DNA from: a virus
Length of the DNA stretch: 22,905 nt
IMG/VR virus record: IMGVR_UViG_3300044546_000103
Span: 1-22,905 of that record
Direction: 5' to 3' (one strand)
This document shows positions 3,935 to 21,281 of this stretch, piece after piece; position 1 is the first letter of the stretch; every line of letters begins with the position of its first letter. Under the pieces are notes generated by a model that had not been told where the DNA came from, did no database searches, and saw nothing but the letters and a program-made list of their open reading frames with translations. Position numbers and translations under genes: made by a program.

Positions 3935-4495
3935 TTATTCGTTCTCGTGGGGGAAGTCATAATTCCAAAAACAATCTTGTGATGTGGGAAGATAAATACC
4001 ACCAACGAACGCTGTGTTCTTTGGACGGATTGTGTCAAAGGTAGAGCCTGGATTCAAGAACAATGGATAGTCATTGGTGTATGTCCGCAAATAATCTCTC
4101 AACCTGTTGGCATAGTATTCCGCTTTATCACGATAACGACCTTCAATCATTGTCATTTCCTCCACGGATACTGCACGAGCGTTGTCACTCTCTCTACTTG
4201 CTACGCTCTTATTCATCAATTTAAACGTCATAGGGAGCATTGCTTCGGTCAACGTGTAGTATTTCAAACAAGGTGCAATGTATGAATCCAAAAGCGTTGT
4301 ATTCAATTGAGTCAAAGTACCAGCGAACGCCTGAACTTGGAGTTCGTTGTAAATGCCTGAACCAATCACGTCTCGCACATAGATCTCTTGAGCTTCTTTG
4401 ATGGCTGATTTCAAAAGTTTATCGTCAACATTCTCATTCAAAGGGGTGTTGTCTTTGAGATAAGTGGTTGAAATGAAGTATACGAAGTTGGTCAT
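3935..4495 (-). CDS. Head-tail connector protein, gp6-like (186 aa)
   Basis: An all-alpha protein of the kind that forms the connector ring under the portal. It has 'LKSAIKEAQEIYVRDVIGSGIYNELQ' over about 28-53, a long helical middle ('LLDSYIAPCLKYYTLTEAML') and a C-terminal 'YRDKAEYYANRLRDYLRTY' helix, matching Bacteroidetes-phage connector proteins I recall. Its ATG overlaps the portal stop as ATGA, and a connector directly after the portal is the expected position. No signal or membrane segment is present. Confidence 0.75.
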   Translation of the reverse strand: MTNFVYFISTTYLKDNTPLNENVDDKLLKSAIKEAQEIYVRDVIGSGIYNELQVQAFAGTLTQLNTTLLDSYIAPCLKYYTLTEAMLPMTFKLMNKSVASRESDNARAVSVEEMTMIEGRYRDKAEYYANRLRDYLRTYTNDYPLFLNPGSTFDTIRPKNTAFVGGIYLPTSQDCFWNYDFPHENE

Positions 4496-6372
4496 CTTTT
4501 AATTCTCCTCAATAATTGTTGAACCCATATGTGTCTGCATTGTGGTGTGGTGATTCCTGTTTCTTTGTTAGTGTACCACTCACCTCTCCTCTTCCATACA
4601 TCGTAACCCAACTCCGCTGACATCATATTTATGTCCTCACGAGAATAAACACGCTTACTACCTTCAATCTGTCTGCAAAAATCACGGCTTGTTGGAATGA
4701 TGATTGGTCCTGGAATACCCGGTGCTAAACCATAACTATATCTCACCACGATTTCAGTTTGTAAACGCTTCACTTCTTCAACTCCTTTGGGTGTTGTTTC
4801 CAATCCGTCTTCGTATGACTTGACCAAATCGGCTTTGGCAAGTTTAGCAATTGCATCGGCAACGACCTTTGCATCCAGTTTGGTGATGTTCACGATGTCA
4901 CCCACTTGAAGACCTTTGTTCTCTTTTAACACGTTCAAGATGGCAGTTTCAACCGCATCCACAAATTCAAAAGTGTAGGCTTCAAAGTTCTCCGCTGGTT
5001 CTCCGTGTGATTGGAAAACCTTGATGTCACGTTCGTCATCCCAACCAAAGGGGTTTTGTTTTGACAATGCCACGGGTGAAGAACCAAGTGAATCTCCACC
5101 GGGTATTGGAGCAAGTCCCGCCAATTGACGTTTTTCATTCACGGTCATATTTGAAAGGACGTTGTTCGCAACCAAAGGACTCAAGGCATTGATTGCATCG
5201 TTGAGAGATGATGTCACTTGTACGTTTGATATTGATGGCAATCCAAGTTCTTTCCTTGCTTCTTCGTTGGTGATGATTCCAGCGGTGAACAAAGCCTGAT
5301 AGTCCAATCCGATTGGTGGTTTGTTGATGGTTTCCAACTTAACCGATGCAATTGGTTCAAGCAAATAGGCGAAGGTATCGTCTATCTTTTGTTGACGTGG
5401 TTCAATGTATGCGTGGTGGAACATCTCATAGGCTTCAATCAACTCCGAACGACCGCCTAATTGTCCCTCTACACGCACTCCAAACAACATTGGGGAGTTT
5501 ACCTTGTGTGCGACAAATATCTCTTGTTGTACTGTCTTATTTAAAAGGTCGAATTGCTTGTCAAAATCCGATGGTTGAAGGTTACTGATGACTGATTCCT
5601 TCTCCGTTGGGTCGTTATACTGAATGATTAAACCACCGGCATTGTCTGTGCCTTGATAGTTCTCTTTGAATCGTCTCGCAGTTGCACGAGCTTCTTCAGG
5701 TGTGGGAATGCCCTTAAATAACTGGATATGAGTTTGAGCCGTGAATCCGTTCTTAATGCTATTCAAGTAGTAATTGGAAATCTCGGTATCAACTTCGATG
5801 TATTTCAATGCCCCAACGTAATCAGGTAAGGGGTATTCACCTTGACCGGGGCGATAGAACTGGCAATAATACAATTGCTTTGATTCTCTCGTGATTGGGT
5901 TGTAGGGTTGATAAGAGATGCGTGGTGCTTTTGCATCAGTCCAATCTTCACAATACACGAAATCACCCTCAAGACCTTTGCGAACATCCTTGAATGGAAT
6001 GTGGTAGTATTCGGATGGTGCGGTCTTCGCTTTGTTCCAAATTACCTCAACGCAAAAGCCATTGAACAACTCAGCGTCATAGGCTATTTTGCCCTTGAGT
6101 TCTTCGTAGGTTTCGTAGGCGTTAATGCTTTTGAGTTTGGCTTGGATTTTGGCGATGTCGGTGGTGTTTTGTCCATATACCTCAGTGCCAATTCCAGCCA
6201 CATATGAAGCTTTTGCAGAAACGATTGCATTGTGTTTTGGGCTTTTGTTAAATAGTTCAATTAAAAAATCGGGATAGAGATTATCTGCTCCGAAGGTCAC
6301 GAATCCTTTTGCCTTATTTTCTTTGAAAACAGGTAGTTTGTTATCGTGAAAATTCAATCTTTGGAATATCAT
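4492..6372 (-). CDS. Portal protein with C-terminal minor-head-like extension (626 aa)
   Basis: Portal proteins form the dodecameric ring through which DNA is packaged and ejected. The body (about 1-420) has portal features: 'NLYPDFLIELFNKSPKHNAIV' near 31-51, 'ELFNGFCVEVIWNK', the stem/wing-like 'PEEARATARRFKENYQG', and 'VNSPMLFGVRVEGQLGG'. Residues about 472-538 read as a winged-helix domain (TAILNVLKENKGLQVGDIVN, then 'VVADAIAKLAKADLV'). The last 65 residues carry RDFC, SREDI, DVWKRRGEWY and CRHIW, like the C-terminus of Mu gpF-type minor head proteins. ATG 6372 is preferred over upstream starts because those lie in the preceding gene. This leaves a 16-base gap. Confidence 0.88.
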   Translation of the reverse strand: MIFQRLNFHDNKLPVFKENKAKGFVTFGADNLYPDFLIELFNKSPKHNAIVSAKASYVAGIGTEVYGQNTTDIAKIQAKLKSINAYETYEELKGKIAYDAELFNGFCVEVIWNKAKTAPSEYYHIPFKDVRKGLEGDFVYCEDWTDAKAPRISYQPYNPITRESKQLYYCQFYRPGQGEYPLPDYVGALKYIEVDTEISNYYLNSIKNGFTAQTHIQLFKGIPTPEEARATARRFKENYQGTDNAGGLIIQYNDPTEKESVISNLQPSDFDKQFDLLNKTVQQEIFVAHKVNSPMLFGVRVEGQLGGRSELIEAYEMFHHAYIEPRQQKIDDTFAYLLEPIASVKLETINKPPIGLDYQALFTAGIITNEEARKELGLPSISNVQVTSSLNDAINALSPLVANNVLSNMTVNEKRQLAGLAPIPGGDSLGSSPVALSKQNPFGWDDERDIKVFQSHGEPAENFEAYTFEFVDAVETAILNVLKENKGLQVGDIVNITKLDAKVVADAIAKLAKADLVKSYEDGLETTPKGVEEVKRLQTEIVVRYSYGLAPGIPGPIIIPTSRDFCRQIEGSKRVYSREDINMMSAELGYDVWKRRGEWYTNKETGITTPQCRHIWVQQLLRRIKR

Positions 6373-6388
6373 CTCTATCAAATAGCGT

Positions 6389-6613
6389 TTAATCTTTTTT
6401 GTTTGAGAACTTGTCAATAGATGTGAATCCAAGACAAGCAATCACGATGAATTCAACTGCGGTCACCAGTTCGGGAGAAGGTGCGATATCAGTAGTTGAC
6501 ATAGAATTGTGAGCCATTGTGCCAAACAAAACAAAAGCACCAATGATCCCAACGAATCTTTTTGACGACATTTCTCCTTTGTCACCCGTGAAAATTTCCA
6601 TTAATTTTTTCAT
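6389..6613 (-). CDS. Putative holin (74 aa)
   Basis: A small membrane protein with two hydrophobic segments (about 19-34, KRFVGIIGAFVLFGTM, and 50-65, LVTAVEFIVIACLGFTS) and charged ends. The 'FTGDKGEMSSKRFVGIIG' N-terminus is a pattern I know from Bacteroidetes-phage holin-like proteins. Its start overlaps the endolysin stop as ATGA, which fits a holin/endolysin pair. A holin would permeabilise the inner membrane to trigger lysis. The function is inferred from topology and position. Confidence 0.65.
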   Translation of the reverse strand: MKKLMEIFTGDKGEMSSKRFVGIIGAFVLFGTMAHNSMSTTDIAPSPELVTAVEFIVIACLGFTSIDKFSNKKD

Positions 6614-10824: not shown

Positions 10825-11331
10825 TTAGATACCTAAAGCGGTAACAACAGAAGCTTGTAATTTGAAAGGTGCTTCCGCTTCGATAGCAGAAAGCGTAACT
10901 TCATAACCGTTGGAATCTCCCATCGCAGTACCTGTGTTGGCAACCATAGCGGTCACATCACATCCGTACTCCTTACCAACCAACCAATACTCATCGTTAT
11001 TGTTTTTTACGATGCAGTAGCAACGACCTTGAGCGAGAAGCTTCATTTCGTTTCTTTTGGTGGTGGACAATCTGCGAAGTTTAAAAACAACATCCGATTG
11101 ATTGAATGATGTTCCATTTTCTACAGAGACGTTGGTGGTGATGGTCATTGAACCAGTTCCTTTGGGAAGCTCGTAATCATAAACATCACCACTTGCAACG
11201 GTTGTGGCAGTTACTTCACCACTTGCAACGGTGAATTTTGAATCAACCCAAGTGATAAGGTGGATTGATTTGATTCCGCCAACTGCGTCTTTGCAGTCAA
11301 GCGTGAATCCTTGTGTGAGTAAACAAGCCAT
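10825..11331 (-). CDS. Major tail tube protein (168 aa)
   Basis: Probably the subunit of the tail tube. It starts MACLLTQGFTLDCKDAVGG, followed by 'IKSIHLITWVD', a start I recognise from tail tube proteins of Bacteroidetes siphophages. The rest is beta-rich with 'MTITTNVSVENGTSFNQSDVVFKLRRLS' spread over about 62-89 and ends in the long beta stretch typical of the fold. Placement after the major capsid gene (11-base gap) and before a strong terminator fits an abundantly made structural protein. Confidence 0.75.
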   Translation of the reverse strand: MACLLTQGFTLDCKDAVGGIKSIHLITWVDSKFTVASGEVTATTVASGDVYDYELPKGTGSMTITTNVSVENGTSFNQSDVVFKLRRLSTTKRNEMKLLAQGRCYCIVKNNNDEYWLVGKEYGCDVTAMVANTGTAMGDSNGYEVTLSAIEAEAPFKLQASVVTALGI

Positions 11332-13445: not shown

Positions 13446-15275
13446 TTATTGAGTTACGGATACTTTTTTCAATGATGCCACACGACCTTGTGTGCGTGAA
13501 ATGTCGCCTTCGGTAACGTATACACGTTGATCAAATCCGTTTACTTGTGGCAATGTGGATGATACTTTCGGAGCTGCCATTTGTGCCATACCTCCTCCGC
13601 TTGATTGCATTCCCGATGGTGCTGATGGTTGACCACCTTTGAGGATGTCTCTCGCTTTCTTTGCGTTCGTCAAAATCATTGCAGCCAAACCGATGTACTT
13701 TGCAGCACCGGCAAGACCACCAGTCGCCACGTTGTCGGGAGATGGTTTTTGAGTCACATTCAACGCTCCTGAGATTGCCATTGCCGTATCTGCTGCGATA
13801 ACCGACAAAGCAATTGCCTTGCCTGTTTTGGTTTGCTCTCCAGCCAATGCAGCGATGGAATTTGCCAAATCAATTGACGCTTTGTACAGGCTTTGTTTTG
13901 CTTGTTGAACGGCTTGTTCCGATTTGATTCTATCTTCAGCACTCTTGGCAGCAATTGCGGTGACAATCTCGGCTTCTTTCTTTTTGTTCTCAATCAGTTC
14001 ATCACTTGCCTTCTTCTCGGCTTCGGCTTGTTGTGCATCAAAATTCAATTTTGCCGTTGCAATGTCGCTTTGATATTTGGCTTTGATTAACTTGATGGCT
14101 TCTTCGTTCCCTTCAGCTTCTTTGAGTTGTTGCCAATATGCATCACGCAACGCCAATCTTTGATTTTCATATTCAATCTTTACTCGCTCTTTTTCAGTTT
14201 TGGCTTGTGCCAATCTTCTCTCCCTTTCGGATTCAACAAAGCCTTGTTGTGCGTCAGCAATTTGCTGATTTTTTAACTTCTCGGCTGCCGCTGCTTCTTC
14301 CTCTTCCTTCTTTTTCTCGGCTTTCTTCTTATCTCTTTCTGCTTGTCTGTCTTTCGCTGCCTGTGCGTTGGCATCGTTTTGTGCTTTGGTTTGGTCTTTT
14401 TGGTAGTTCTGCTCCTCAATCTCCAACACCTTCAATGCGTTCTTGGTATCGTCAATTATCTTGCCCCAATTCTTCTCATTGTTTTTGCCATAACTTGCAC
14501 GAGCAAGTGCCAAATCATTCTCCAACTTCTCACGCTCCTTGTTGAAAACTCCGACTTGGTCACCTCTCGCCTTGAGCAATGCAATCTCTCGGTCAAGTTG
14601 GTCATTCGCTCTCTCGGTTGTCTTGTTCAATTTAGCCAATGCCCTATCTTGTGCGGATGTTATTCCAACCCAATCCGTGAACTGCTGAACCAAACCACCG
14701 ACAAACTTGACCATTGAACCAAGACCAGGGATCAACGACATCACGGCTTTTTTGAGTGTGTCAAAGTTGGCAATGATTAACGTCAAAGCGATACCGATTG
14801 CACCGAAGGCAAGGTTTGACATATTGCCCAACGCCTTGAACGCACTCATCACACCACCTTTGATATTCTTGGCAATCGCCCCAAATTGTTGTTGAACTTT
14901 TCCAAGTCCCTCAAGACCTTCAGCCAATGCCATCGCTCCTTGAAGTTTGACCATTGTCTTTTCAAGTTCTTCCGATTGGTTGCCGAACAATGCCATTGCC
15001 CCTTGTGCTGCTTGGAATCCACGAGCAACTCCCGAAACAACCGTGTTCAATTGTGCAAACTTATCGGGGTTCACCGCCTTTACTCGGTCATTGAAGTCCT
15101 CCATTCGGTCACGAGCTTGAGCAAGTGCCTTCTCTGCCTTGATGGCTTCAGGTGAAAACTCCCCAAACTGCATCACCGCTTGTTGAGCGGCAACGGTTAA
15201 CTCCCTAATCTCTGCCTTCATTGACTTGAAGTCAGGCTTGTTGACGGTTAAGTCAATACTTGCATTTAATGCCAT
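13446..15275 (-). CDS. Tail tape measure protein (609 aa)
   Basis: Sets tail length and is ejected with DNA. The N-terminus (1-120) is helical. A hydrophobic segment with 'LAFGAIGIALTLIIANF' and 'VMSLIPGLGSMVKFVGGLVQQ' lies at about 155-205. A long charged coiled coil (about 215-430, with a Lys/Glu/Ala-rich run near 310-335) follows, then a second hydrophobic stretch (about 470-545) and a conserved-looking tail, VYVTEGDISRTQGRVASLKK. By the usual 0.15 nm per residue, 609 residues would give a tail of about 90 nm. It is 2 bases from the end of the tail-tip gene and comes after, not before, the Dit/tail-tip genes, which is unusual. Confidence 0.85.
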   Translation of the reverse strand: MALNASIDLTVNKPDFKSMKAEIRELTVAAQQAVMQFGEFSPEAIKAEKALAQARDRMEDFNDRVKAVNPDKFAQLNTVVSGVARGFQAAQGAMALFGNQSEELEKTMVKLQGAMALAEGLEGLGKVQQQFGAIAKNIKGGVMSAFKALGNMSNLAFGAIGIALTLIIANFDTLKKAVMSLIPGLGSMVKFVGGLVQQFTDWVGITSAQDRALAKLNKTTERANDQLDREIALLKARGDQVGVFNKEREKLENDLALARASYGKNNEKNWGKIIDDTKNALKVLEIEEQNYQKDQTKAQNDANAQAAKDRQAERDKKKAEKKKEEEEAAAAEKLKNQQIADAQQGFVESERERRLAQAKTEKERVKIEYENQRLALRDAYWQQLKEAEGNEEAIKLIKAKYQSDIATAKLNFDAQQAEAEKKASDELIENKKKEAEIVTAIAAKSAEDRIKSEQAVQQAKQSLYKASIDLANSIAALAGEQTKTGKAIALSVIAADTAMAISGALNVTQKPSPDNVATGGLAGAAKYIGLAAMILTNAKKARDILKGGQPSAPSGMQSSGGGMAQMAAPKVSSTLPQVNGFDQRVYVTEGDISRTQGRVASLKKVSVTQ

Positions 15276-15276
15276 C

Positions 15277-18012
15277 TTATTTTTCTCCCATTAAAAAGTA
15301 ATCAATACCATCAGTCACAATCTCGTGTGCTGCCCAATTCGTTGAAACACTATGTGTGTCCCCTCCGTCAATCTTTGCCGTGCCTGTTGTCTCAATCGTC
15401 ACGGAATGTGCTGCGGTGATTTTCTTGACTGCAAAATACTTCCCACTCAATCCAGCTGGATCGGGCAAGGTCAACACCATCCCTCCCGTTGCTGGATTCA
15501 ACAGAAATAAGTAATCGTCCTTTGTTGCCGTGTAACTTGTCGTTAGCGTTTTGACATCTCCACCACTCAAAAAGTTTGGATACATCTCGTAATTGCCGAC
15601 ATACATTGTGTTCGATTTGGTGACCTCAAAGTCATCACAAACAATCGCCACACTTCCATCCACTCCGATTGGAAATGCGACATTGGTCACTCCAAGTCCT
15701 GAATTGTTGACGTTGACTGAATCGTTCACAACACCAGTACCAACAAAAACACCCATTCCACTATCTTGACTTGTGCCAACGCTTACTCCTTTGATACCCG
15801 GCTTAATTGGGAAGTTACCCGCTGGATAAATATCCCCGTTGATTTCTTCGCTTTGTCCTCCTCCCGTTCCACTTCCAATTGTTTTGTTGGTGATGGTTGC
15901 TGGAGGTATGAACTGAGCCAATAGAAATTCACATTGGTACACCCCATCTTGCATTGGGTTGTAATCGTTTACTTTATTCAACCGCCAATACTGACCTTCA
16001 AAGAAATACAGATTTTTGAATTGTAGGTTGAACCAATCACTTGGAGTTATACGAAAATATGCTCGTACAATCTTAGAGTTTTTGTTGGTGATTTCCGTGA
16101 TAAACCGATAGTAAAAGTTTGTGACAAGGTTTGAATTGCCGTATTTGTAACCAGCACCCACACCCAATTCTCTCGGCATCCCGAAAAGGATATCAAAGGT
16201 TGGATTTGAAATTGAATCATAATGCAATGTCAACGGCAATGATGCACGATTGGAGTAAAACGGGAGCATATAGGAAATTGGGTACAACCTCCAACTCACT
16301 CCAGTTTGCAAACCACCATAATATAATATCCTCAAGTCACCATCCTTCTCCGAGTCCACATATGATAGAACGAAGTTCTTTTGTGCGTTCGGATAATTCT
16401 TGATTTGAGTTGGTGAAAATACGATGTCAATTTTCTTCTCCGTTTTTACAAAGTCATTGTCAACCTGATACGTGCGTGATCCATAGGTTGTTTGATACAT
16501 CTCTTGATACTCTTGGTTGCTGATATCTCCACCTTGTTTGTAGCTGAACATATACGGATTTGCATCCAGTTCACCCATAGGAACAATCTCAACGGGTTGT
16601 GAGTAATCAAGTTTGTATGTCCAATCCACATTCACCCCATTGTAAAAATCATCTCTTGGAACAAGACGAAGTTTCTTTGGCTGGTCTTTGTCGGGTTCAA
16701 TGTATAAGTTGAACATCTTGACAAAGGACATCAGCATATCACTTTGTTTGACTTCGGAGTTCAGGAACTGGGTGAAATCAACCGTTTCTCCATAACCGAA
16801 AGTAAATGCCGTGCAATCATTCTCAACAAAGGAGTTTGTCAATACGTCAAGAGTGAAGTTGCTATTGACAAGCGTTGTGTTATTCAACGAATCATATACT
16901 TGAGTCAGTTTGAACGTCACACTATCGCCAATGTTCGCTCGTGAATACACCAAATGTACATCGTTTACAATCGGGAACACGCCAAATGTTTGTTGGAATG
17001 TGGCAGTTTTGACAAGTACGTTGTTGACATACATCCCAATTGCAATCGTGAAATTATCAGGTGGATACAAAGGTGAATAAGTACCTATGTTACACACCAT
17101 ATTAAGAGTCAAATCAAACACATACTCACCAGCAACAGGAACAACATAAGCACCCGTGCCGTTGTTGTAGTTATTGCCGTTGTCATAGTTGCCCGATGTG
17201 GAATCGTTGTTGAAGATTAAGGTCGTTCCAAGAGACAATGATTGTGTTGTTGTCCTTGTTGCTTTGAATCTTCTTTGTTCAATAACCGCAGAACTAACCG
17301 TCAACCCATTCGGTGGTGTTACAACCAACCTTTTGAATCTGTCGTTATTGAAGTATGAATCAGCGGTGTACGAATACCCGGCATCGGTGAAGATTTTGTC
17401 AACGATGGTTTTTGCATAAAGGCAAGGAGTCATTGACGATACTTCAAACTGCGTGATGTTCTGCGTTTTTGAATATCCTTTGTCAATTAGGGCGTACATA
17501 TAACCGCTCCCATAGGCGAACGCTTGTGAGCTTCCGTTCTTTGTGATGGACGTATCCCACGAATCAATAACCGCACCACTTGACAAGGTGTGATTGTACT
17601 CCGAGAAGTCAAGCACGTTCAATTTACGCTCGGCAATGGTGGTGAATAAGTCCGCAGTTTGCCCGTGTAAGGAGCATTGATATTCGATTTGAGTAGATCC
17701 AAGAACATTGATTTGAATCAAGCGAATAAACCCTCTCAACTGCTCTATCTCGTCCAATAAAACCACGACATCGGCTTTCTTGTTGGGGTTGAAATCGGGA
17801 GCAAATTGGGTTGATGTGCGAATCGTGTGTTCAACCTCAAAGATGTGAGAGAATAGCTTGTTGTTTTGTGCAGTCCCTGGTATTGTGATTGTCTTTGTCC
17901 ACTCGCTGGAGCGTGATTGTGGTTCACGAATGTCAGCAATTGCCTTGTTTATTGAGATATCAAAATCCGCAGACAAATCAACGGGCGTATTATTCACTAA
18001 GAGCCTTATCAT
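15277..18012 (-). CDS. Tail-tip (hub/Tal-like) protein with appended beta domains (911 aa)
   Basis: The largest gene here. Residues 1-240 and about 400-700 look like a tail hub (MIRLLVNNTPVDLSADFDIS; 'DMLMSFVKMFNLYIEPDKDQ' at 425-444; 'FKNLYFFEGQYWRLNKVNDY' at 665-684). An insert at about 260-395 is a beta-sandwich-like domain ('VPVAGEYVFDLTLNMV'). A Gly-rich linker (712-720, GSGTGGGQS) leads to a repetitive beta region and a C-terminal tip (820-911) ending GIDYFLMGEK. The tip resembles the end of the fibre protein. The ATG overlaps the Dit-like stop as ATGA. It probably plugs the tail and contacts the cell surface. Confidence 0.75.
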   Translation of the reverse strand: MIRLLVNNTPVDLSADFDISINKAIADIREPQSRSSEWTKTITIPGTAQNNKLFSHIFEVEHTIRTSTQFAPDFNPNKKADVVVLLDEIEQLRGFIRLIQINVLGSTQIEYQCSLHGQTADLFTTIAERKLNVLDFSEYNHTLSSGAVIDSWDTSITKNGSSQAFAYGSGYMYALIDKGYSKTQNITQFEVSSMTPCLYAKTIVDKIFTDAGYSYTADSYFNNDRFKRLVVTPPNGLTVSSAVIEQRRFKATRTTTQSLSLGTTLIFNNDSTSGNYDNGNNYNNGTGAYVVPVAGEYVFDLTLNMVCNIGTYSPLYPPDNFTIAIGMYVNNVLVKTATFQQTFGVFPIVNDVHLVYSRANIGDSVTFKLTQVYDSLNNTTLVNSNFTLDVLTNSFVENDCTAFTFGYGETVDFTQFLNSEVKQSDMLMSFVKMFNLYIEPDKDQPKKLRLVPRDDFYNGVNVDWTYKLDYSQPVEIVPMGELDANPYMFSYKQGGDISNQEYQEMYQTTYGSRTYQVDNDFVKTEKKIDIVFSPTQIKNYPNAQKNFVLSYVDSEKDGDLRILYYGGLQTGVSWRLYPISYMLPFYSNRASLPLTLHYDSISNPTFDILFGMPRELGVGAGYKYGNSNLVTNFYYRFITEITNKNSKIVRAYFRITPSDWFNLQFKNLYFFEGQYWRLNKVNDYNPMQDGVYQCEFLLAQFIPPATITNKTIGSGTGGGQSEEINGDIYPAGNFPIKPGIKGVSVGTSQDSGMGVFVGTGVVNDSVNVNNSGLGVTNVAFPIGVDGSVAIVCDDFEVTKSNTMYVGNYEMYPNFLSGGDVKTLTTSYTATKDDYLFLLNPATGGMVLTLPDPAGLSGKYFAVKKITAAHSVTIETTGTAKIDGGDTHSVSTNWAAHEIVTDGIDYFLMGEK

Positions 18013-19142
18013 ATGCGTTGTGATTTGTCAGCAAATGAAAGCGTGATGTCAAGTTCAAGGTTGAACATTCTATCTTGTACGGTCTTTTTCTGCTCATATG
18101 CCACATTGTCTATGTTGACTGCGTACAAAGTGCCATCATACATATAAACGATGGGTGATTCAATCAGGTCTTTCAACCAAATTGATTCCACATCATTGAT
18201 CCAGTTACTAAACAACTTAATTTTTTGGCTTGTTTCGGTGTGATAATTGGTGCGAGTCCTTGCCGATGTTTGGTATCCGTACGATGCACCCAATGTGTAG
18301 GGGTTTTGTTGGAATTGTTTTCGCACTACTTCAAAGTTATCTCTGCGAACCATATTAAAACGGAAGGACTCAAACCCACCAAGACGATTCATAAAGAAAA
18401 TATCAGTTGTTTCGTACTTGCTACACTCGTCCTTGATGTTGAATCGGTATGTCTCGGACTTGGATGTACCTCCAGCCTTCAACACAACGTCAAAGAATGT
18501 CGCTCCACCGGGTATTGTTAACTGACTTCCAACGGGTATTCTCACCACCTTAGACGAAGGCAAAGTAAATGTCTGCGTAGATGTGTCGGAATAAGTAATT
18601 AGAACGCTTGTGGCATCTCCTTTCAAAGCATAGAGCCAATCCTTTTGAGTGCGGTGTATTGTCCGTGTGCGGACGTTGGTCAAGAACTTTGCGGATGTGG
18701 ATGTGGCGAGATAATTAGCTTGAGAGTAGGTGACCAAATCAAATGGATTCAAGGCAGCGTTCCACACCGTGCCGGTTGCAGATGTCAAATCAAGATATTC
18801 CGTGATTGTTCCAGTTGGTGAGTTGCTATACTCATACCCGAACTCTACCTCGTAATCGCTGAATGAGTTCACGCATCCGCTTGGTGATGTATCGGTGAAT
18901 TCCCAATTATTGGTAACGTAACTTTCAAGAATTCTGCCAATGTTGAACACGCCCTTGTTTGTACTGCCAAAGTAAATCGGTGCTTTCAATTTTGCCACGG
19001 TTGTCGCTGCGACCTTGACATCGGCAATGAACTTGAAATTGTCTTTTGTGTAGATACCACCGCTTGATTCCGTTATGACAAAGTTTGTGTCATTGAATGC
19101 TGGTGCGTAGTTGTTGGGTTGTTGGGTGATTGATAGAGCCAC
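18009..19142 (-). CDS. Distal tail (Dit-like) protein (377 aa)
   Basis: A beta-rich structural protein starting MALSITQQPNNYAPAFNDTN. The middle has 'SYVTNNWEFTDTSPSGCVN', a Thr/Ser-rich sandwich ('VLITYSDTSTQTFTLPSSKV') and 'TTDIFFMNRLGGFESFRFN' (about 246-264), the last being a hallmark I associate with Bacteroidetes-phage distal tail proteins. It precedes the tail-tip gene with an ATGA overlap, the common Dit-Tal order. No catalytic motif is seen. The leader region upstream holds the opposite-strand tRNA-like gene, so its transcription must read through antisense to that gene. Confidence 0.65.
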   Translation of the reverse strand: MALSITQQPNNYAPAFNDTNFVITESSGGIYTKDNFKFIADVKVAATTVAKLKAPIYFGSTNKGVFNIGRILESYVTNNWEFTDTSPSGCVNSFSDYEVEFGYEYSNSPTGTITEYLDLTSATGTVWNAALNPFDLVTYSQANYLATSTSAKFLTNVRTRTIHRTQKDWLYALKGDATSVLITYSDTSTQTFTLPSSKVVRIPVGSQLTIPGGATFFDVVLKAGGTSKSETYRFNIKDECSKYETTDIFFMNRLGGFESFRFNMVRRDNFEVVRKQFQQNPYTLGASYGYQTSARTRTNYHTETSQKIKLFSNWINDVESIWLKDLIESPIVYMYDGTLYAVNIDNVAYEQKKTVQDRMFNLELDITLSFADKSQRI

Positions 19143-19218: not shown

Positions 19219-19334
19219 AGTTAGGTGGCGAAATTGGGTAGACGCATAGGGAATAGTCATTCTTTGTAGAAATACAAAGTCAGCACTAACCAGACAAAGT
19301 TGATGTCATATAGGTTCGAGTCCTATCCTAACTA
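19219..19334 (+). tRNA. tRNA-like gene with oversized middle region (116 nt)
   Basis: The only plus-strand gene. A perfect 7-bp acceptor stem pairs AGTTAGG (19219-19225) with CCTAACT (19327-19333), discriminator A 19334. The D-arm is GCG/CGC (19228-30/19243-45) with a GG-containing loop. The T-arm is ATAGG/CCTAT around the canonical TTCGAGT (19315-19321). The D-arm resembles Leu tRNAs. The middle, 19246-19309, is 64 nt, about 30 more than a class II tRNA needs, and holds a 7-bp hairpin with a GAAA tetraloop (19262-19279) and a possible second stem (TCAGC 19280-84/GTTGA 19299-303). A weak 5-bp anticodon stem with a 7-base loop can be drawn at 19248-19264 (triplet AGT), but I do not trust the identity. 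TTACTTTG (19205-19212) is a near-match -7 box placed to start transcription near the 5' end. CCA is not encoded. Confidence 0.65.
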
Positions 19335-20092
19335 CAACATCTCGTGCAGACAAGCCACAACGTATGCGTTGAATCCTTTGGCGGCTGCCTGTTCAATTCT
19401 TTTGTCTCGCTCCTTCACCTTTGCCTTGAAAAAAGCAATCGTGTTGAGAAACTCTATGAGTGGCATTGTGAGGATGGCATCCCACTTTGTGCGGTCACCT
19501 TTGACAATTCTGTCAACCAACTCAAGCCATATTATCGGACTTCCGTTATTTCCTTCTTCAACTGCTCCATCTCCTTGATCAAATAGGATTGGATAGTTTT
19601 CAATAACTCTGGATAAACTGCCGAAAAAAAAAGCGAGTAGCTATATGGCAACGGCACTTCCATTGATAGAAACAAATCGCACTTGTCTTGATAGTGTGCT
19701 TGTGCATCTTTGATGGTTTTTGACTTGCCAAAGAAATCCACCTCATAGGCGAGTAACGCCATTATTTTGTTGAGCGATTCTATCGTATCTCCGTTGAACA
19801 CTTGTTGAAGTTCTATGAAGTGGTGGCCACAAATCTCATTGGGTGTTTTTGCCAATCGGAAATATCTGCCCTTGTGTTTGAACATAAATTGAACAGGTCG
19901 GTTGGGCAGTTCATTCAAGAACTCCAACTTCTTGAACTCTTTTGTCAGCTCGTCAATGGGCATTGATTCGACCTTGTCCATTGTCCAGTTGTTAACGATG
20001 GCAAGGATGTTCATTGTCCTTTCAATGTGGGACATATCACGACAAGAGTGAATCTCTTGCAGTTGGTGGATGGTTATGTTGTTCCAATTCAT
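19332..20092 (-). CDS. Tail assembly chaperone, -1 frameshift fusion form (253 aa)
   Basis: Predicted long product, analogous to lambda gpGT. Translation starts at ATG 20092, slips back one base on a run of nine T (19632-19624) and continues in the -1 frame, which is open from the slip site to a TAG at 19334-19332 and has no ATG of its own until deep inside. The extension reads FGSLSRVIENYPILFDQ..., then WLELVDRIVKGDRTKWDAIL, ending VVACLHEML. A hydrophilic helical extension with 'W-x2-LV-x3-KGDRTKWD' fits the T-type domain that recruits tail tube subunits. 761 bases plus one re-read base equal 254 codons exactly. The alternative is a homopolymer length error or a real frameshift mutation. 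Confidence 0.7.
19532..20092 (-). CDS. Tail assembly chaperone, unshifted form (186 aa)
   Basis: The zero-frame product (gpG-like), expected to be the abundant form that coats the tape measure protein during tail assembly. ATG 20092 (MNWNNITIHQLQEIHSCRD) follows the terminase stop by one base; the open frame continues upstream only within terminase. It is mostly helical, with 'MDKVESMPIDELTKEFKKLE' and 'RYFRLAKTPNEICGHHFIEL' as landmarks, and ends at TAA 19532-19534 after KKEITEVR. The function is inferred mainly from the frameshift architecture and tail context; unusually, Dit and tail-tip genes separate it from the tape measure gene. Confidence 0.8.
   Translation of the reverse strand: MNWNNITIHQLQEIHSCRDMSHIERTMNILAIVNNWTMDKVESMPIDELTKEFKKLEFLNELPNRPVQFMFKHKGRYFRLAKTPNEICGHHFIELQQVFNGDTIESLNKIMALLAYEVDFFGKSKTIKDAQAHYQDKCDLFLSMEVPLPYSYSLFFSAVYPELLKTIQSYLIKEMEQLKKEITEVR
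19624..19633 (-). promoter_or_regulatory. Slippery site for -1 ribosomal frameshift
   Basis: On the minus strand the zero frame reads CTT TTT TTT TCG across nine consecutive T. This provides T-TTT-TTT heptamers (X-XXY-YYZ) on which both tRNAs re-pair perfectly after moving back one base. The -1 frame is then free of stops for about 97 codons. Confidence 0.7.
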
Positions 20093-20093
20093 A

Positions 20094-21281
20094 TTATGCA
20101 AAGTAAAATGTTCCTGGTCTGTTGTGTTTTTTGCAATCAAGAGCCAACGCCAATGCCATAACGCAGTCATCGTGAAGTCCTTGTGGTGCGGTGTATCTCA
20201 CGCCCGTTCTTGTGTACTCAAATTCAAAGTTTTCCATCTCCGAGCCTATCGGTTCTTCAGGGAAAAACACCTCCTTGTTTTGGACTGATATGACCAAACC
20301 CTCAATGAGTTGTTGTTTGCTCTGTGATGTGAATTTAAATCCCTTAATTCTTGGATGACTGCGTTGTAATTGCTCAACAATAGGATCTCCAACACCGGTA
20401 CTATCAACGAATGCTGGAGTCACTCCAATCAATGAGGTGATTTTTGCCAATGTTTGTGACCAATCGGCTTGGAATCTGTCCACATATGCCACACAATTCA
20501 TCGCATCCAAACCGATAATGACGGTATAATCCGAGTACTTCGCCAAATCCACGCCCCAACTTACCACACTTTTGTTTGTAACTGGGTGATAACAACTGCG
20601 AATGGCATCAATACCGAATGGATTTGTCTTATCGTCCGCTGGTTCTGCCAAATACAATTCATCAAAAACGTGTTTTGGTAAATCTCGTTTCGCTTGTTCA
20701 ACCTCCTCAAGTTTGAGAATGCCTTCTTTGACTGCATCGTAAGCGGTTATCTTAAAATATCTGTAATCACTCTCACCACTCCTCGCCCTTTCGCCCAACT
20801 TGTAGAACCAGTTCTTTTTGCCTTTGACGTTTCCAATCAACTTGCACTTGCCTTGTGTAGCGGTCAAGGTTGAACGCATTGCATACCACGACTCTTCACG
20901 CATCCTTGACGCTTCGTCAATCACGGCAGCATACACGTCATCCCCATACAAGTTGTCAGGCTTCTCCCCTGACTTGAATTCTATCCTCGCTCCAGTTGGT
21001 AAGGTGAGCAACAACTTGGTTTCGTTGGATTGGAAGAAGTTTTTGTCCGTCACTTGTGACTTCATCCTTCGGAAGGCAATCTCCGCTTGTTGGTATACAG
21101 GAGCAACCCACCACACCGATTGGTTGTCTTGACATTTCAAGGCTTGTTCAAAAAGCCAAATGATGTGAGATGCGGTCTTTCCCGTTTTTGTACTCGCTGC
21201 GGTTATTGTGAACCTCTCCTCACAATCAAGGATGGCTTGTTGGTAACTGGTAACAAATGGACGATTGTAGGTTATTTGCAT
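20094..21281 (-). CDS. terL: Terminase large subunit (395 aa)
   Basis: The ATP-driven DNA-packaging motor and nuclease. Walker A is STKTGKT (30-36) and Walker B is VIDEA (120-124), followed by the coupling region 'KLIGNVKGKKNWFYKLGE'. The RNase-H-like nuclease domain has GVDLAKYSDYT (243-253, Asp245), VDSTGVGDP (292-300, Asp293) and HDDCVMALALA (370-380), the three acidic clusters expected. The length is slightly short but complete. It overlaps the end of the glycosyltransferase gene by 10 bases. No small terminase is visible; it may lie beyond the right edge or be absent. The portal is about 14 kb downstream instead of adjacent. Confidence 0.95.
   Translation of the reverse strand: MQITYNRPFVTSYQQAILDCEERFTITAASTKTGKTASHIIWLFEQALKCQDNQSVWWVAPVYQQAEIAFRRMKSQVTDKNFFQSNETKLLLTLPTGARIEFKSGEKPDNLYGDDVYAAVIDEASRMREESWYAMRSTLTATQGKCKLIGNVKGKKNWFYKLGERARSGESDYRYFKITAYDAVKEGILKLEEVEQAKRDLPKHVFDELYLAEPADDKTNPFGIDAIRSCYHPVTNKSVVSWGVDLAKYSDYTVIIGLDAMNCVAYVDRFQADWSQTLAKITSLIGVTPAFVDSTGVGDPIVEQLQRSHPRIKGFKFTSQSKQQLIEGLVISVQNKEVFFPEEPIGSEMENFEFEYTRTGVRYTAPQGLHDDCVMALALALDCKKHNRPGTFYFA

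Follow-up and report, generated by a model that had tools for sequence, protein, structure and literature searches.

A putative tail assembly chaperone gene with a conserved nine-T slip run in phages related to Nonlabens phage P12024

Recoding of two open reading frames to append a short C-terminal domain is a hallmark of tail assembly chaperones. To our knowledge, all known tail chaperones shift frame on the ribosome. In lambda, the short product gpG and the -1 product gpGT, which carries a C-terminal domain, are encoded ahead of the tail genes, and the G/GT gene lies between the tube and tape measure genes. Tail-chaperone recoding has been described as ribosomal (PMC5009743), occurring at about 6-7% in an HK97-like cluster (PMC3711429). 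A different agent acts in dnaX of Thermus thermophilus, an unrelated gene in which a nine-base homopolymer is enough for slippage by bacterial RNA polymerase, for which nine As or Ts make an efficient slip site (PMC5009743).

Here we describe a large, unannotated family of recoded genes with a nine-T run in phages related to Nonlabens phage P12024; the family has a cultured member. A literature search that combined tail assembly chaperone frameshifts with Bacteroidetes gave no description of this nine-T gene.

Two coding frames meet at a nine-T run

The DNA analyzed (the window) makes up one complete IMG/VR contig of 22,905 bases. On its minus strand, a zero-frame ORF (19532..20092) starts with ATG at 20092, ends with TAA at 19534-19532 and encodes 186 aa. 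Thirty codons ahead of its end is CTT TTT TTT TCG (19633-19622, minus strand), which contains a run of exactly nine Ts (19624..19632) and the heptamer T TTT TTT (19631-19625). The -1 frame is open from 19625 and closes with TAG at 19334-19332. This extension (19332..19625, minus strand), which we call the T-part, encodes 97 aa. The short and long products have residues 1-156 in common, the last 30 aa of the short product are its own, and the fusion is 156 + 97 = 253 aa long, with ...YSLFFFGSLSR... across the junction. The original prediction had read the zero frame to 19532, the nine-T run, the -1 frame open to 19332 and the 253-aa fusion, and all of these are correct. Composition alone would give 3.3 such runs in the window (both strands). 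Because a single nine-T run is not rare by composition, the case for recoding rests on relatives.

Scans of IMG/VR with the window family returned several hundred loci, which include 153 distinct gene sequences with a readable junction. Zero-frame proteins in the first set were 39-100% identical to that of the window. In all readable loci of the family, the junction is T9, or T10 by substitution, with codon phase unchanged and a long -1 frame, which encodes roughly 90-98 aa across the family. When the window family and the sister family described below are taken together, the nine-T run is present in every readable relative, roughly 200 in all. Neither T8 nor T7 was ever found at the slip site among readable window-family loci and 62 sister-family loci. 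In 2.5 Mb (redundant) of relatives there are 247 runs of at least nine Ts, and all but about 3 are the slip site. A search of genome contigs with the window family returned no relative. One candidate exception, a T8 run in L321, was rejected since it sits in another ORF. We also observed a 3,780-base contig (L097) with the extension at its start and the zero frame at its end, a permuted or misassembled fragment.

Homopolymers are prone to error, and remote relatives encode a single continuous frame, as would be expected if a one-base error or a decaying gene had disrupted a true continuous gene here. However, the same run length and phase recur across hundreds of independent contigs and also in two cultured phages. 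Where a tenth T occurs, it comes from a base change (TCG to TTG, or CTT to TTT) with no effect on either frame, and the zero-frame tail of the short product is conserved inside each family. On the strength of this sequence conservation, we regard an artefact as already refuted.

The pattern of variation was assessed by within-cluster comparison. Before the run, variable sites at codon positions 1/2/3 of the zero frame number 19/5/90. Past the zero-frame stop, variation concentrates at third positions of the -1 frame (12/5/42 at positions 1/2/3). In the overlap 3' of the run (19532..19623, minus strand), variable sites are rarer and show no codon periodicity. This switch of codon-position variation at the run is what two overlapping coding frames produce, with both frames under constraint in the overlap.

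The second part could instead be a separate gene, translated by coupling or from an internal start, which is how gp39 of P12024S is annotated. The window's -1 frame has its earliest plausible start codon, TTG, at 19520 and an internal ATG further on. TTG codons are found at scattered positions in the -1 part of relatives, and gp39 has an ATG. However, the position of a start is not conserved. ATG, GTG and TTG are all absent from the first 45 codons of the -1 part in 65 of the 153 sequences, and only 4 have an ATG there. Moreover, the region before any start is conserved and is continuous with the single-frame relatives. We therefore consider two separate genes very improbable. The original prediction proposed programmed access to a -1 frame without a start of its own and suggested aligning homologues; the run, its phase and both frames are kept in the 153 distinct sequences, and the T-run and both frames are likewise conserved in the 62 sister-family contigs. 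The recoding itself is almost certainly real.

Recoded and single-frame relatives

A tblastn comparison of the window protein with cultured phages gave no match, and the link to P12024S was found by fold search. The AlphaFold2 model of the short protein (mean pLDDT 86.5) matched 33 viral proteins in Foldseek at E <= 1e-3, including P12024S gp38 (E 4.9e-8) and a protein of Flavobacterium phage 6H. The P12024S record annotates gp38 and gp39 as two separate genes. However, gp38 lies directly after the terminase large subunit gene (TerL), carries C-T9-A in the same phase as the window, and has a -1 frame that contains the annotated gp39. P12024L has the same run, and in both phages (gp38/gp39 and gp40/gp41) the -1 extension enters the next annotated ORF. 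Among IMG/VR relatives of gp38, the run and the -1 extension are present in 62/62 complete loci (61 T9, one T10). The frameshift is missing from the annotation of P12024S/L, and our results correct the gene calls for P12024S gp38/gp39.

This sister family (62 contigs plus P12024S/L) is about 15-20% identical to the window family. The window phage and P12024S have the same structural module, with a protease, major capsid protein (MCP), candidate tube protein, portal, DUF6712 protein and two tail proteins in common. The window phage, itself uncultured, is therefore a distant relative of Inhavirus and of a marine Flavobacteriia phage. Just past the run, the T-parts of the two families are alike (FFFGSLSRVIENYPILF and FFLSFRERLRDLYPELY; profile alignment p 8e-4), whereas the short products end differently (FFYHLGND in P12024S/L and FFSAVYPELL in the window). 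Because the T-parts are alike between families and the tails of the short products are not, the long product is what is conserved. In many P12024-type members (L266-L324), the zero frame runs 58-87 codons beyond the slip, across most of the -1 extension. In these members, almost all of the T-part is thus coded in two frames, and TTTTTTTTTATCATTTAGGNAACGA is almost invariant.

A second group of relatives encodes the protein without recoding. A weak match pointed to a scaffold of a human gut phage and to prophages in Bacteroides MAGs, where a protein of 286-287 aa is encoded in a single frame across the junction. When the whole junction was aligned to the Bacteroides prophage proteins with hhalign, p was 8.7e-7. 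The 6H match led to single-frame homologues in Flavobacterium phages FPSV-F7 and laban6-1, Cellulophaga phage Ingeline and a phage filed under Microcystis, and IMG/VR contributed 23 further single-frame loci. The proteins of the Duneviridae (FPSV-F7, laban6-1, Ingeline) and of the Bacteroides prophages are 271-305 aa long and homologous across the junction. Like the window, they conserve an LFF motif at the slip position. Unlike the window, their frame is continuous, and neither a stop nor a run of seven or more Ts was found at the junction in the single-frame loci checked. The junction motif in these loci is mostly L-F/Y-F-A/G with varied codons, versus LFFF or LFFL in the recoded families.

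The presence of the long protein in one frame in remote relatives further indicates that the long product is the conserved protein. Single-frame relatives appear content with the long form alone, so the two-product ratio is not required across the whole superfamily, which counts against the chaperone-pair reading discussed below. Since some related phages recode to make the long protein and others make it directly, one can now ask what purpose the short product serves, and whether polymerase and ribosome slippage are interchangeable for setting a tail-chaperone ratio.

Two records in this group carry observations of their own. In Flavobacterium phage 6H (L256, 10352-10927), a break near codon 185 interrupts the homologue, and the annotated protein is 191 aa long. 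Sister phages of 6H (L257, 3001-3882) have a single 293-aa ORF, and several local bases differ. The break may be a sequencing error or a real disruption. The phage filed under Microcystis (L261, MZ447863) carries a homologue of a family otherwise met in phages of Bacteroidota, and its host assignment may deserve a check.

RNA polymerase or ribosome as the slip agent

Two agents could give access to the -1 frame, and from the sequences the choice appears near even, with RNA polymerase slightly favored. We give an even chance to polymerase slippage that adds one U to the message. Polymerase slippage has been demonstrated for the nine-base run of T. thermophilus dnaX and is inferred for the window gene. 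Consistent with this, the run is never shorter than nine in readable members of the recoded families, runs of at least nine Ts are nearly absent from the rest of these genomes, and the window clade shows no conserved RNA stimulator. At the slip site, the two Phe codons are TTT without exception in both families, while elsewhere in the same genes TTC makes up 61% (window family) and 52% (P12024 family) of Phe codons. In the P12024 family, TTC at the second slip Phe would alter neither encoded protein and would retain the heptamer, yet it is never used. We estimate the chance of such TTT retention at roughly 1 in 1000, counting about ten clusters at 70% identity. Coding constraints account for part of the retention of at least nine Ts and of TTT over TTC. 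Hydrophobic codons in one frame or in both can explain the first and ninth Ts, and nine Ts are therefore no proof of polymerase slippage. U UUU UUU is a good heptamer for the ribosome too, and TTT may suit it better than TTC.

The same two products could arise by classical -1 ribosomal frameshifting, in which the tRNA-Phe in the P site and that in the A site shift in tandem on U UUU UUU. This reading is credible, if somewhat short of an even chance. Every readable member has the heptamer (X XXY YYZ, here T TTT TTT) in phase, and the tail-chaperone recoding cited above is ribosomal. In a distant clade of the window family, a 10-bp helix can form that begins about 8 nt downstream, with pairing in 96.7% of cells. 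However, covariation of this helix was not above that of shuffles, and no equivalent or other conserved RNA stimulator was found in the window clade (both by RNAalifold). Upstream of the run there is no SD-like stimulator, and Bacteroidota are without SD-led initiation (PMC6847099). A heptamer places no demand on the third base of the A-site codon, yet that base is never C. We consider it improbable that both agents act together.

If polymerase slippage is the agent, a large phage lineage, including flavobacterial phages, could set its tail-chaperone ratio by RNA polymerase on nine Ts and not by the ribosome, having converted a single-frame ancestor into a two-product gene. We put this scenario forward tentatively.

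Gene order and a putative role in tail assembly

From its architecture and position, the gene probably encodes a tail assembly chaperone pair. The 186-aa short protein would be the main output. A fraction would enter the -1 frame by slippage at the nine-T run and yield the 253-aa protein, made of the shared first 156 residues and a 97-residue helical extension. By analogy with lambda gpG/gpGT, the pair would coat the tape measure protein and recruit tail tube subunits.

The original prediction described this as the lambda G/GT arrangement in a phage with no recognizable lambda-like sequence. The likeness holds in that a short product and a long -1 product are encoded ahead of the tail genes. 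It does not extend to homology or gene order, and the lambda slip site is GGGAAAG as opposed to nine Ts. We found nothing when aligning to lambda gpG and gpT with hhalign. Neither Pfam nor PHROG scans, run on the two parts and on 11 diverse fusions, matched any model, chaperone models included, and PDB searches by sequence and by fold also returned nothing. In BFVD, strong Foldseek matches are unnamed phage proteins such as A0A6J5LW25, and the matches that carry a tail chaperone annotation are weak (E 0.037, 0.4). The two parts were folded separately; the T-part model is of low confidence (pLDDT 64), and the fold search with it was uninformative. We therefore compare the gene with lambda G/GT in its presumed way of working and not by descent.

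In both recoded families, the gene comes right after TerL and is the first of the tail module. In the window, TerL (20094..21281, minus strand; phrog_2, E 2.6e-33) lies directly upstream, separated by a 1 nt gap. TerL is present in nearly all relatives, and in most cases the distance from its end to the frameshift gene is no more than about 20 nt. On the other side is a gene for a 377-aa tail protein, Dit-like by position (18009..19142, minus strand; blastp E 1.3e-12 to P12024S CDS 25201-26625, gp44), which is next in order in 186 of the 187 relatives with enough flank. It is followed by a 911-aa tail/tip protein (15277..18012, minus strand; N-terminal blastp E 1.3e-5 to P12024S CDS 26802-29066, gp45). 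Next is a 609-aa tape-measure-like protein (13446..15275, minus strand), recognized by its long coiled-coil, hydrophobic segment and position, with a match to the unnamed phrog_5218 (E 4e-5). Two tail genes therefore separate the frameshift gene from the tape measure gene, as originally proposed. A 168-aa protein (10825..11331, minus strand; blastp E 1.7e-21 to P12024S gp03; phrog_19091, no function given) is a candidate major tail protein from its position and sequence. The candidate tube gene is placed after MCP and not beside the frameshift gene. The window thus departs from the lambda order, in which G/GT separates the major tail protein gene from the tape measure gene.

This position directly after TerL in both recoded families could also suit a recoded protein that serves packaging or head-tail joining. 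In the Duneviridae and the Bacteroides prophages, the gene is located after the portal and adaptor genes, and homology to known chaperones is lacking. However, TerL of the window and P12024 families show no similarity at 1e-5 while the neighboring tail genes match. The gene therefore travels with the tail genes, which favors a tail role over packaging. In addition, recoding across two ORFs to add a short C-terminal domain is, as noted above, a hallmark of tail chaperones. In Ingeline and in a Bacteroides prophage (L254), the homologue is upstream of the tape measure gene, in Ingeline by three genes. We consider a role in packaging or head-tail joining unlikely and continue to favor a tail assembly chaperone pair.

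Two further observations concern the window. The C-terminal region of the portal protein (4492-6441, minus strand) has weak winged-helix (MarR-like) matches. On the plus strand, 19219-19334 matches the Rfam tRNA model at 35.5 bits, which exceeds the gathering score. This element is convergent with the frameshift gene and covers part of its -1 stop codon. It received no ARAGORN call, its middle is odd and long, and its D and T arms are leucine-like; the T-arm motif is present in just 9 of 132 relatives.
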